Virus record (IMG/VR): IMGVR_UViG_3300018481_000003 | Span: 64,001 to 118,102 of that record | DNA length: 54,102 bases | Origin: a virus | Direction: 5' to 3' (one strand) | In this document: positions 25,985 to 43,729 of the stretch, in pieces | Layout of the letters: each line of letters starts with the position of its first letter | How positions within the stretch are numbered: position 1 is the first letter of the stretch | The notes under the pieces: generated by a model | What the model was told of the DNA's origin: nothing | Databases searched by the model: none | The model's input: the letters and a program-made list of their open reading frames with translations, nothing else | Made by a program: the position numbers and the translations under genes

Positions 25985-28035
25985 GCGAAGTTGGCGCCCT
26001 TGCGGGCCATGCTCTCGGCAATCCCCTTATCGCCGCCGTAGCCCAGGCCCACGATGACACGATCCTCAGCCCGGTAAGCGGTGAGCGTCGGAGAGTTGCC
26101 GCTCCAATCGTCGTCGGTCATCACCAACACGATGTGCTTGGCCTTGCCGTACTGCTGATTGTCGAGGTCGTTGAGCGCCATCGCCGGGTTGGTGCCACCC
26201 ACCGCATCGATGGTCGGCAGAACCTCGGCCTTCTCGTTGGCGTCCCACAGGACCCTGGCCTCGGTGTCCCACAGGACCACCGTGCAAGGGATTCCCAGCC
26301 GGTCGCAAGCGGCCTTGGAAGCAAATGCCACCTGAGCCAACTCCTTGGTCACGTTCCACATCGACCCGCTGTAGTCCAACAGGACGCTGACAGCGATGTC
26401 ATGACCGGGCTGGCCCTCGTCTACGTAGCTGCGGAAGAACTCCACGTTGCCGGGGCGCCGAGTCTCGTAGCGCAGGACGTTGAGCACGCCCCGACGCTGT
26501 TCCTCTTGCCATGACGGTGCGATGTTGACCGTGGCCTGCTGGAACGCCCGCTCCAGATTGGAAGCCAGAGCGTTCGCCACGATGTTGTCGTCAGGGTTGG
26601 TGTTCACGCCGCCCTGGTAGGGGATCAGGTTGGAAGCAGTGTTGTTCTTGGCGTCGTTGAACGCCTGGACATCGGCATCCAGCGCCTTGTCCTCCAGCCG
26701 CTCGGCCTCGGCCTCGGCAAGCGCCTTGTCGAGGTCATCCTGGCTCAGGCCCTCGTCCTCGTCCTCGTCCTTGTCGGCAGCCTTGGCCTCGTCGGCAACC
26801 TCGTCGGCAACCTCGTCCTCAGCCTCGTCCTCGTCGTCGGCAGGCCCATCGGCGGCGTCAGCTTCCTCAGCCTCAGCAACCGGGCGGTCGAACTCATGAG
26901 TACCGCTGGAACCGCCCGACTTGGAGTGGCTGTCAGCCTCGTTGGCATCGCCCTCGGTGTCGTCCTCGGCCTCACCGTCAGCAGCGTCATCGCCCTCAGC
27001 GGCAGGCCCAGGTTGCGGCTGGCCCTGAGCAGGCTTGCCCTTGCCAGCTTCCTGCGCTTCCTCGGCAGCCTCAGCTTCCATCGACGGATCGACCGGGATC
27101 GACAGGCCGTCCTCGGCCTTCTCCCCCTTGGAGCGCTGGTAACCGTGACCGGCATCACCCAGGTTGAAGTCCAGTTGAATCCGCTTCAACACAGCGGCCA
27201 TCTCGACCACGGCATCGAACATCGCTGTGGCCGTCTGAGCCAGCACGTAGCGGGTGGTGATGCCCTGAATCTCACGAACCAGATCATCACCGTCATCGGG
27301 ATGAGCGGCCAGGAACATCGCCTTGGCACCGTCACGAACGTGCTTCGGCAGGTACTTACGCCAGACCATCAGCGGCCAGTTGGCAGCAGCCTTCTCAGGT
27401 GTGTTCGCCAACTCGCTCAACATCATCGGTGTGAAGTACCCGGCCTTGCGAGGCGAGTCGCTCACGACCGCCGTTTCCATGCGCTGGTCCTCCAGAGCGT
27501 TCCAGGCCCAGTGCAGTTGGTTGGCGGTGAATCCCGGCGCCTTGAAGTTGCGGAACTCGTCATCCCCGAGATCGTTGTAGCCGCCCTCGACTCGGGCCAG
27601 CCTTGTCAGGTCTGGCATCGGGACCGTCCAGCGGCAGTGACCACCTTCGTGGTAGGCCATCCCTCGGATCACCGCAGCCGTCAGCTTGATGTCATCGAAC
27701 AAGTGGTAGCCGAGATGAATGAGGTCGAAGTTGGTCCAGGCGTTGATCGACTGGTGATCAGCACGAACCTCTGTCTGGATCGGCACGGTGACACCCTCGG
27801 ATGAGAGCACGGCGCCGACACGCTGGACGATGGAGCGCTGGAGTGCAGCGGCAGCCACTGTCTTTGGGTTCTGCCTCGACTGCTTGCTGTGGGCTTGATT
27901 AGCCCTACGGGCGTCCTCGACCAGCTTCTCGGCAAGCTCAGCCTGCTCTCTGGCGAGGCGCTGACGCTCTCGCTGCATGATCGAACGACCGATGTCAGTG
28001 GTGGCCTTCTTGCGAGGCTTACGGGTGCGGGTCAT
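25918..28035 (-). CDS. CobT-like VWA-domain protein (MoxR partner)
   Basis: 705 aa from ATG 28035, placed 6 nt after a -10. The N-terminal domain has a zinc-type HEGGH (129-133; AYHEGGHCRW) and ALEDQRMETA, reminiscent of cobaltochelatase CobT. A long acidic linker (about 320-465) follows. The C-terminal von Willebrand A domain has the MIDAS motif DYSGSMW (from D554), with later T and D residues (VMTDDDW). In this family the VWA protein works with a MoxR/CobS AAA+ ATPase as a remodelling or metal-insertion machine. That ATPase gene is divergent, 364 bp away. Metal chelation in B12 synthesis is not implied, as no other cob gene is seen. Confidence 0.85.
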   Translation of the reverse strand: MTRTRKPRKKATTDIGRSIMQRERQRLAREQAELAEKLVEDARRANQAHSKQSRQNPKTVAAAALQRSIVQRVGAVLSSEGVTVPIQTEVRADHQSINAWTNFDLIHLGYHLFDDIKLTAAVIRGMAYHEGGHCRWTVPMPDLTRLARVEGGYNDLGDDEFRNFKAPGFTANQLHWAWNALEDQRMETAVVSDSPRKAGYFTPMMLSELANTPEKAAANWPLMVWRKYLPKHVRDGAKAMFLAAHPDDGDDLVREIQGITTRYVLAQTATAMFDAVVEMAAVLKRIQLDFNLGDAGHGYQRSKGEKAEDGLSIPVDPSMEAEAAEEAQEAGKGKPAQGQPQPGPAAEGDDAADGEAEDDTEGDANEADSHSKSGGSSGTHEFDRPVAEAEEADAADGPADDEDEAEDEVADEVADEAKAADKDEDEDEGLSQDDLDKALAEAEAERLEDKALDADVQAFNDAKNNTASNLIPYQGGVNTNPDDNIVANALASNLERAFQQATVNIAPSWQEEQRRGVLNVLRYETRRPGNVEFFRSYVDEGQPGHDIAVSVLLDYSGSMWNVTKELAQVAFASKAACDRLGIPCTVVLWDTEARVLWDANEKAEVLPTIDAVGGTNPAMALNDLDNQQYGKAKHIVLVMTDDDWSGNSPTLTAYRAEDRVIVGLGYGGDKGIAESMARKGANFAYSIEDLAEIPKHLEQALVSVI

Positions 28036-28041
28036 GAGTAC

Positions 28042-28070
28042 ACCGTACACCCTCCGCATCGCTAACACAA
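28042..28070 (-). promoter_or_regulatory. Leaderless promoter of the VWA gene
   Basis: Minus strand: TTGTGT, 17-nt spacer, TACGGT, GTACTC, ATG (28035). The -10 is weak, but spacing and -35 match the window-wide promoter family. Confidence 0.58.
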
Positions 28071-28093: not shown

Positions 28094-28283
28094 CTTGCTA
28101 GCAAGCGTTCAGGCGTGATGCCCTGAGAGGCCTTTGCAAAGCCCGTAGGGGGCTGATACCGCCATTCGGCCACTAGCACCCATTCCAGTGCTTCTGTGCC
28201 CCCACAGAGCAACGACCACTAACACAATACTCACCGTAACACCAGGTAGACCACCTGAAATTGCTCGAAATAAAGTGAGAGAC
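28094..28283. repeat. Non-coding duplicated element, copy A
   Basis: About 190 bp between the divergent VWA and AAA+ genes. It shares with 37043-37221 the ordered blocks TTGCTAGCAAG, GCCTTTGCAAAGCC, a G-run, TTCTGTGCC, ACTAACACAATAC, CAGGTAGA and AAAGTGA. The 12-bp CTTGCTAGCAAG is a perfect palindrome. No convincing reading frame crosses it. This and the flanking promoters account for the 363-bp intergenic gap. Confidence 0.72.
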
Positions 28284-28330: not shown

Positions 28331-28359
28331 TTGTGTTTCTACCGATACCCCGATACCAT
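28331..28359 (+). promoter_or_regulatory. Promoter of the AAA+ gene
   Basis: -35 TTGTGT, 17-nt spacer containing CCGATACCCCGATACC, -10 TACCAT. The start codon follows 40 nt later with a GAAAGGA Shine-Dalgarno, so this one is leadered. Confidence 0.65.
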
Positions 28360-29664: not shown

Positions 29665-29704
29665 AGAGTGCTGCTAGCGACGTTGGTGTTGCTAGCAGCA
29701 CTCT
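29665..29704. repeat. 14-bp inverted repeat overlapping the Ku promoter
   Basis: AGAGTGCTGCTAGC and GCTAGCAGCACTCT, perfect arms with a 12-nt loop. The -35 sits in the loop and the -10 starts 2 nt after the second arm. It could be the terminator of the ATPase gene, an operator for the Ku promoter, or both. Confidence 0.75.
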
Positions 29705-36881: not shown

Positions 36882-36908
36882 ATGACCACTTACCGCAAGG
36901 CCCAGTGA
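36882..36908 (+). CDS. 8-aa leaderless mini-ORF
   Basis: ATG at the exact leaderless distance from the promoter encodes MTTYRKAQ then TGA. It may be a leader peptide, or simply the 5' end of a non-coding RNA. The following 36909-37042 stretch is G/C-rich and can fold (GGGCC/GGCC pairs) and contains no longer frame that I can support. Confidence 0.35.
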   Translation: MTTYRKAQ

Positions 36909-37042
36909 CCGGGCCTGCTCCGAGGCGGGCCGAGAGGCCACGCAGCTACCGCACCGGGGACGGGTGTGACTAGGGATGCTCCGCATTATGTGTGTCTGTT
37001 GTGTTACGAGTCTGCGCTCGCTCACGACCACCAACCACACAG

Positions 37043-37221
37043 TTGCTAGCAAGAATCCTTTGCAAAGCCTTTGCAAAGCCGTATGGGGGCGATTAGCGAT
37101 TGCCCGCCACTGGCATACCCCCCTATGCGTTCTGTGCCCTTAGACGGCAACGTGAACTAACACAATACGGGCCATCACCCCAGGTAGAAGCCCACTTTTC
37201 AGCGTTTTCAAAGTGATAGAC
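37043..37221. repeat. Non-coding duplicated element, copy B
   Basis: Matches 28094-28283 in the same order (TTGCTAGCAAG, CCTTTGCAAAGCC, a G-run, TTCTGTGCC, ACTAACACAATAC, CAGGTAGA, AAAGTGA). Here the CCTTTGCAAAG block is tandemly doubled (37057-37080). It lies in a 400-bp gap (36909-37308) without genes, upstream of the 37245 promoter. Confidence 0.72.
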
Positions 37222-37244: not shown

Positions 37245-37273
37245 TTGTGATACGGCGATACCGCCTGTACTCT
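37245..37273 (+). promoter_or_regulatory. Promoter TTGTGA-N17-TACTCT
   Basis: -35 TTGTGA, spacer TACGGCGATACCGCCTG, -10 TACTCT. A leader with GAAGGA precedes ATG 37309. Confidence 0.7.
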
Positions 37274-40456: not shown

Positions 40457-40471
40457 CCAACGCAGAGCATC

Positions 40472-40497
40472 GAGGGCCACCCTACGGGGTGGCCCTC
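40472..40497 (+). terminator. Rho-independent terminator with UACG tetraloop
   Basis: 11-bp perfect stem GAGGGCCACCC / GGGTGGCCCTC closed by TACG (a C-UACG-G loop, very stable in RNA), followed by TTTGCGTT. Ends the helicase transcript. Confidence 0.85.
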
Positions 40498-40924
40498 TTT
40501 GCGTTCCCGCTCTCTCCAGTAACACCCCAGGGCCATAGCCCACTATCAGGCCCTTACTAGCAACGTCGCCCCCACAACGCGTCACAGGCATGTCTCACAG
40601 TGTTACCCCTGGTCAGCATGCCGCCCGGTATGACTACACTTGCTAGTAGCTCAGCGCCCCCAGAACGCACTACAGAGGCCTCTCCGGGCATACCTACCTA
40701 TCAGCCCACCCCTCACACACAGACTCCCTCCAGCAGCTACCAACCACAGGGCCACCACCCCGGCGCCCTGAACTACGCCCTAGAATCAACAAGCTCCCCA
40801 AGGTGTCAGCAGAGCGGCAGCCAAACTGCCACGCTCACTCACACCTGGGGGGCACTCACAACGCACTCACACACACGCACTCTCACCTGGGCAGCACCAT
40901 GGGCGCCCTAGACCATGGTCACTA

Positions 40925-40972
40925 ACTAGTCCATACACATGCACTAGTCACTCCACTAGTCACTCCACTAGT
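40925..40972. repeat. ACTAGT iterons
   Basis: ACTAGT at 40925, 40943, 40955 and 40967. The last two belong to an exact tandem repeat of CACTCCACTAGT (40949-40960 and 40961-40972). ACTAGT is itself palindromic. Confidence 0.8.
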
Positions 40973-41141
40973 AACTAGAGCACACCAAGGCTATGCCTCT
41001 GGTGCTACACACATGAGTGGCTTCGCCACTCAATGCGCTTAGCGACATCGTGTTCTTATGCCTCTATGACTCTTAACCAGCCATCCAATGCCGCCAATGG
41101 GCGTGCATTCTGGCAACTCCAATGCCCTTAACTGTGTTGTG

Positions 41142-41164
41142 TTAACAGGCTGCAAGCCTGTTAA
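41142..41164. repeat. Inverted repeat TTAACAGGCT/AGCCTGTTAA
   Basis: 10-bp perfect arms around GCA. TTGTGTTAAC at its left resembles the -35 region of the promoter family, so it may be an operator rather than a terminator. Confidence 0.65.
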
Positions 41165-41174
41165 GCACACCCGA

Positions 41175-41217
41175 GTTGCTAGTGGGCGCCACCTATGGGC
41201 GCCCAGTTGATAGCAAC
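41175..41217. repeat. Nested inverted repeat GTTGCTA/TAGCAAC
   Basis: Outer arms GTTGCTA (41175-41181) and TAGCAAC (41211-41217), inner arms TGGGCGCC (41183-41190) and GGCGCCCA (41198-41205). It can form a cruciform or RNA hairpin. Confidence 0.68.
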
Positions 41218-41333
41218 CTAAGAGACTATACACACACCAAAGGGGGGACCATTAAGATCAATGCCCCACACCGGGGGGCGTAGCACCCATGGGTAGAGAA
41301 TGGGTAAATTAGCAACTGGAGTAGTGCTGGGAG

Positions 41334-41388
41334 GGTTAACCGGTAGTGCTGTGTGGGTTAACCCAGGCGGGTTAACCCGTGTGTTAAC
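41334..41388. promoter_or_regulatory. Four GTTAAC palindromic operator sites
   Basis: GGTTAACC (41334), GGGTTAACCC (41355), GGGTTAACCC (41369) and TGTTAACC (41382), centres 22, 14 and 12 bp apart, directly upstream of the RHH-like gene. A possible -10 (TAACCT 41385-41390) overlaps the last site, 7 nt before ATG 41398. This arrangement suits autoregulation by a dimeric DNA-binding protein. Confidence 0.7.
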
Positions 41389-41397
41389 CTGATACCC

Positions 41398-41730
41398 ATG
41401 CCGAAACAGCCGTTAACAGCCTTCCGACTCTCTCCAGAGGCCCAAGCTGAGCTAGAGGACCAGGCTTTCGCCGCTGGGGTCACTACCTCTCTCAAGGCCA
41501 AGGCTCTCCTGGAGAGCTTGCTAGTGCCGCCGGTTGGCGTTCCGGGGAAGGTTGGGAAGGTCTCTAAGCGTCCAGCCAAGAAGGTTGCCGCCAGAGATGC
41601 CGCCAAGGCTTGGGAAGCTGCTGAGCGCAACATCGCCTCAGCCTCCCAACAGGTTTACGCCAGGAATGCTGACGAGGCCGAGGAACGTGCCGCCTACGAG
41701 AAGTACCTGTTGCGGGACAAGGACGACTGA
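41398..41730 (+). CDS. Ribbon-helix-helix-like DNA-binding protein
   Basis: 110 aa. The N-terminal LTAFRLSPEAQAELEDQAFA strand-helix followed by AGVTTSLKAKALLESLL matches the Arc/CopG/MetJ-type RHH pattern. A basic linker (KVGKVSKRPAKKVAAR) and a long charged helix follow. It probably binds the four GTTAAC palindromes in front of it. Likely leaderless (TAACCT then 7 nt). A candidate regulator of the right arm. Confidence 0.68.
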   Translation: MPKQPLTAFRLSPEAQAELEDQAFAAGVTTSLKAKALLESLLVPPVGVPGKVGKVSKRPAKKVAARDAAKAWEAAERNIASASQQVYARNADEAEERAAYEKYLLRDKDD

Positions 41731-43656: not shown

Positions 43657-43727
43657 GCGGGTGTAGCTCAACGGTAGAGCACGACCTTGCCGAGGTCGTG
43701 ATGGGGGTTCGACTCCCCTCGCCCGCT
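43657..43727 (+). tRNA. tRNA-Gly (anticodon GCC)
   Basis: 71 nt with a full cloverleaf: acceptor GCGGGTG/CGCCCGC (one G-U), D arm with AGCTCAACGGTAGAGC, anticodon stem CGACC/GGTCG around TTGCCGA (GCC), T arm with loop TTCGACT, discriminator T. The 3' CCA is not encoded and would be added by CCA-transferase. It reads the GGC/GGU codons that dominate the Gly-rich virion proteins. Confidence 0.95.
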
Positions 43728-43729
43728 CG

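Follow-up and report, generated by a model that had tools for sequence, protein, structure and literature searches.

The record analyzed here is an IMG/VR virus contig of 118,102 bases (GC 60%), and all coordinates refer to the window, the 54,102-nucleotide stretch of it under study, unless a relative is named. Judged by terminase, the nearest named phages are those of Streptomyces, among them BRock and LuckySocke at 48% identity, and thus the host is likely an actinobacterium. Two intergenic segments concern us. Copy A (28094–28283, + strand) lies between two divergent genes, the CobT-like one pointing left and the CobS-like one, of the AAA type, pointing right, and an earlier note on this DNA had correctly placed it between the two; cobS is adjoined by a phage-encoded Ku-domain protein (PF02735; 29751–30557). 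Copy B (37043–37221, + strand) precedes an 89-aa gene, a DUF6011 gene and a helicase gene, and the helicase, Ku and DNA polymerase genes share one part of the phage genome. The sole tRNA gene in the window, tRNA-Gly (GCC), lies at 43657–43728. Copy B had also been said to follow a tiny leaderless ORF. The ORF exists (36882–36908, 8 codons, MTTYRKAQ), with a −35/−10-like pair ending 6 nt 5' of its ATG, but it does not touch copy B, as a conserved block (R1, 36911–36990) intervenes. A leaderless 8-codon counterpart, MPTSISID, is present in the related contig L030 (6493–6519), and in both phages the ORF stands just 3' of a promoter-like TTGTGA-17-TAC(C/G)CT pair and just 5' of R1; the other relatives have a longer ORF in its place.

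The duplication itself is real. The two copies can be aligned along ~190 bp far better than chance would allow: their local alignment scores 77, and 1,000 Markov shuffles of B never exceeded 27. In the rest of the 118-kb record the best other tile on either strand scored 37, and no third copy was found among the tiles of both strands. The three blocks named in that note, TTGCTAGCAAG, CCTTTGCAAAGCC and ACTAACACAATAC, are common to both copies in identical order. Exact matches to ACTAACACAATAC in the record, and in 118 kb to the 10-bp palindromes TTGCTAGCAA and CTTTGCAAAG, are confined to A and B. A looser alignment extends the similarity beyond the ends of the elements to the inferred downstream promoters at ~28350 and ~37260. 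The A–B alignment carries indels of 1 and 2 bases, so that no reading frame is common to the two copies; the conserved frame that would have counted against a non-coding element is absent, a coding sequence is ruled out, and the view that these are not drifted genes holds.

Each copy begins with an operator-like palindrome, CTTGCTAGCAAG in A (28094–28105) and TTGCTAGCAAG in B (37043–37053), neither assigned a strand, followed on the + strand by block 1, which runs from GATGCCCTGAGAGGCC to TTCGGCC in copy A (28117–28171, defined by the nhmmer seed profile together with matches in relatives) and was located in copy B with the block-1 profile (37055–37108). The exact ACTAACACAATAC match comes next (28218–28230 and 37156–37168, both +), and its − strand reads TTGTGTTA, the recurrent −35/operator-like motif of this phage. 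Block 3 is CACCAGGTAGA in copy A (28240–28250, +) and CCCCAGGTAGA in copy B (37178–37188, +); its pattern C[AC]CC[AT]GGTAGA matches the 118 kb only at A and B; within the first 80 kb of G001 it is found in the B element alone, and in L034 its orientation is inverted relative to block 1. Promoters and operators were identified by eye. The putative cobS promoter, TTGTGT-17-TACCAT (28331–28359, +), lies 3' of copy A, a similar pair, TTGTGA-17-TACTCT (37245–37273, +), lies 3' of copy B, and the putative cobT promoter, TTGTGT-17-TACGGT (28042–28070, −), is followed by a leaderless ATG at 28035. Pairs resembling TTGTG(A/T)-17-TACNCT stand 5' of many genes in this phage, and from this we infer that they are promoters. 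A promoter consensus scan returned none at A or B, and the promoter and terminator scans are too strict to serve here.

Homologous elements occur in several related contigs of uncultured phages, which were found via CobS (L004, 66%; L005, 58%), via the conserved block beside copy B (L012) or via helicase alignment (L026 and L029–L037), whereas searches via CobT or the 89-aa protein gave no relatives and bacterial genomes gave nothing beyond distant helicases. By alignment, an element lies on the cobS side in L004, in the same place as copy A, and on the helicase side in L005 and L012. Elements in the place equivalent to copy B are also present in L030, L033, L034, L035 and L037, those of L037 (E 6e-4) and L035 (E 0.029) having been matched by a block-1 profile built from seven seeds (window A, window B, L004, L005, L030, L033 and L034). 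On the cobS side block 1 has no match in L029 or L032, and several other contigs end short of that side. BLASTN of A, B and the relatives' elements against named phages gave no credible match, nor did exact element patterns find a true match in viral contigs; an AT-rich match in L006 was set aside as chance.

The palindrome has the distribution of an operator-like site. With up to one mismatch, TTGCTAGCAA exceeds expectation some 4- to 40-fold in 6 of 11 genomes or loci, where the expected counts presume independent bases: observed versus expected numbers are 9 and 2.1 in G000, 16 and 1.2 in G001, 4 and 0.13 in L004, 5 and 0.31 in L026, 6 and 0.16 in L030, and 5 and 0.22 in L032. It is absent at the same stringency from the other five loci (L005, L029, L033, L034 and L037) and so is not universal. 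Some relatives without it bear GAAACCCTTGCGCTGCAAGGGTTTC-type palindromes in comparable places (L033, 5310–5520; L005, 18510–18535; L037, 1915–1945), possibly another version of the same site. Several TTGCTAGCAA-type sites fall inside genes, and some of these may have arisen by chance. The spacer between −35 and −10 is a classical position for a repressor site, and near-matches to TTGCTAGCAA lie at or between the −35 and −10 of the Ku gene, as read by eye, in the window, L004, L026 and L030; that of the window is TTGCTAGCAG (29689–29698, no strand assigned), which differs from the palindrome at one position and lies within the putative promoter's spacer. As expected of a protein-binding array, discrete sites recur above expectation and blocks 1 and 3 occur in both orientations. 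We therefore consider it probable, if well short of certain, that both copies, now diverged, represent one cis-acting DNA module in which putative protein-binding sites are clustered. No DNA-binding domain was detected in the phage genes scanned, and no repressor or other candidate for the binding protein emerged.

Sites of the same kind are found beyond the helicase gene, in a non-coding region of ~940 bp (40457–41397, no strand assigned) that contains the GC-skew minimum (41272) and TTGCTAGCAA variants at 40554 and 41207, and that we suggest is a putative origin or control region. The window also holds ACTAGT and GGTTAACC repeats there, as well as several GTTAACC-type palindromes at 41330–41400, directly 5' of a 110-aa gene (41398–41730) without a Pfam or PHROG match whose product might be an autoregulated DNA-binding protein. 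A block 1-like match 3' of the helicase gene (40656–40691, −; E 0.043 and 0.035) is weak alone, but the same place in relatives matches better (L034, E 4.6e-5; L026, 2.2e-4; L004, 0.0095; L033, 0.011), with a weak match in G001 (E 0.1); the profile was built solely from cobS- and helicase-side elements, and the best E among five shuffled sets was 0.22. In L026, L033 and L034 these matches face each other as inverted pairs, and GTTGCTAGCAAC or its variants occur around the region in L004, G001, L026, L030 and L032.

These shared sites raise the possibility that A and B act as secondary origins of replication, or that the two are iteron-like satellites, bound by the initiator, of a main origin in the post-helicase region. 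Block 1 and palindrome variants common to all three places would fit, as would the cumulative GC-skew minima just 3' of the helicase in seven genomes or loci (G000, L004, L026, L029, L030, L033 and L034) and the shared location of the helicase, Ku and DNA polymerase genes. However, the skew minimum is not at A or B, and the gene strand also switches beyond the helicase, which can alone create such a minimum, so that even for the post-helicase region an origin is a suggestion. The minimum of G001 lies elsewhere (63.7 kb, in a fragment), some relatives lack A or B, no initiator gene was found and neither copy has an AT-rich unwinding stretch. We regard satellite origins as unlikely, though they are the strongest competitor of the regulatory module.

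The earlier note had allowed for either a structured RNA or a protein-binding array, and of these the array is the one that the independently recurring sub-blocks in both orientations, the promoter-spacer palindromes and the terminator-like hairpins favor. One could argue for a small structured RNA gene in each copy from the short conserved blocks with variable spacers, from the single hairpins that can be drawn, and from one hint in the consensus fold of the A–B pair alone, which on the + strand beats most shuffled alignments (z −2.1, p 0.01). Individually, however, neither copy folds more stably than shuffled sequence on either strand (z-scores of −1.0 and −1.1 for A and B on the + strand, −0.7 and +0.4 on the − strand). 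The consensus modelling with homologues from other phages that had been proposed as a check, constrained by divergent alignments, gave no structure for 12 block-1 copies on either strand; for five full elements the + strand yielded no consensus energy and the − strand did no better than shuffles. Neither stability above shuffles nor compensatory changes mark the elements as structured RNA, and no Rfam family matches A or B at the gathering threshold, where the tRNA is the only hit in the window. Sub-threshold Rfam matches in relatives (ZMP-ZTP at 15.4 bits against a cut-off of 39, mir-145 and SNORD23) were taken as chance. No promoter of their own is seen, the occurrence of blocks in both orientations also speaks against an RNA of this kind, and neither of the two inferred divergent transcripts includes copy A; in L033 and L035 a perfect 12-bp terminator-like hairpin 5' of the element makes read-through into it unlikely. 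Overall we find a small RNA improbable.

A better candidate for a structured RNA than either copy is R1, which is separate from copy B, lies immediately 5' of it and starts a few bases 3' of a stop codon. Its layout, CTCCGAGGCG-hairpin-ACGCNGCTACCGCACC...GGGATGC, is conserved in L004, L005, L012, L026 and L030, and matches to the pattern in L013, L014, L015 and L017 were rejected as chance. The hairpin has a bulged A and a GNRA loop cap in the window, L026, L005 and L030-type sequences, being of the GGCC-GNRA-GGCC type in the window and L026, longer and GCAA-capped in L005, and longer in the stem in L004. The fold z-scores of R1 (+0.2 to −1.4) are not significant, and it has no Rfam match.

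The B site differs between two close relatives in a way that bears on how the element is inherited. It is "empty" in L004, where 18 bp take the place of 151 bp in L012, between flanks that are 95% identical over 60 bp to the left and 86.5% over 2.9 kb to the right, and hence the element behaves as one discrete unit that is gained or lost. This, with its differing position among phages, might suggest a small non-autonomous mobile element, but no terminal inverted repeats or target duplications are seen, the copy number is low, the element always sits in regulatory intergenic spaces, and A and B are oriented alike relative to the downstream gene, which makes mobility very doubtful. Least credible of all is the idea that a promoter region was duplicated and its remnants have no function, for although the A–B similarity takes in the right-hand promoter region, homologous blocks are retained among phages with only 38–58% helicase identity.

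We therefore return to the cis-acting module and put forward a hypothetical mechanism. The module sits ~160–270 bp 5' of the putative cobS promoter and of that of the DUF6011/helicase genes, and in this genome each copy holds an operator-like palindrome (TTGCTAGCAAG), block 1, an TTGTGTTA-type site and block 3. Since variants of the palindrome and block 1 also occur in the post-helicase region, a likely origin/control region, we propose that at least one phage DNA-binding protein most likely binds both modules and that region, and that the expression of the cobS and DUF6011/helicase genes would thereby be coordinated with what happens at the control region. The duplication, its conservation among relatives, the modular blocks in both orientations, the common sites and the missing RNA-structure signal are seen directly in the data; the promoters, their regulation, the binding of a protein and what the post-helicase region does are deduced from sequence. 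A further and rather speculative step, which we would not favor at present, is that one such protein links an origin array in the post-helicase region to distant promoter modules (A, B and the Ku promoter), with the modules acting as origin-coupled switches or as portable secondary origins that related actinophages have gained and lost. Large actinophages have many genes without an assigned function, and little has been described of how such phages regulate them. A conserved non-coding module with sites common to a candidate origin, which some close relatives have at a defined site and others lack, provides a concrete handle on how these phages may regulate replication, NHEJ (Ku) and the CobS/CobT genes.

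The closest parallels of A and B are known phage control repeats. Phage operators and stoperators, such as those of the mycobacteriophage L5 repressor, are short recurrent regulator sites, some of them inside promoters, and the sites described here are likewise short, recurrent candidate regulator sites that lie in part inside inferred promoters, but here the palindrome forms part of a longer, multi-block element and no repressor gene was found. The prophage origins of extrachromosomal mycobacteriophages, which depend on RepA or on a non-coding RNA next to parABS, are similar in being non-coding actinophage segments implicated in replication (PMC7157519). Prophage maintenance was considered and rejected, the record having no match to a ParA-type ATPase (PF13614) or a tyrosine integrase (PF00589). 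Cluster K mycobacteriophages have SAS/ESAS repeats, 11–19 copies of the 13-bp GGGATAGGAGCCC at translation starts, some with 17-bp inverted repeats (PMC3203893). The SAS 13-mer is absent from A and B, and its position differs too. Like A and B, the SAS repeats are intergenic and accompany only some of the phage's genes, include an inverted-repeat part, are kept at the same genes in related phages and have no assigned function (PMC3203893). In contrast to the 13-bp SAS repeat, A and B are ~190-bp multi-block modules in one or two copies, 160–270 bp from the promoter, and have sites in common with the post-helicase region.
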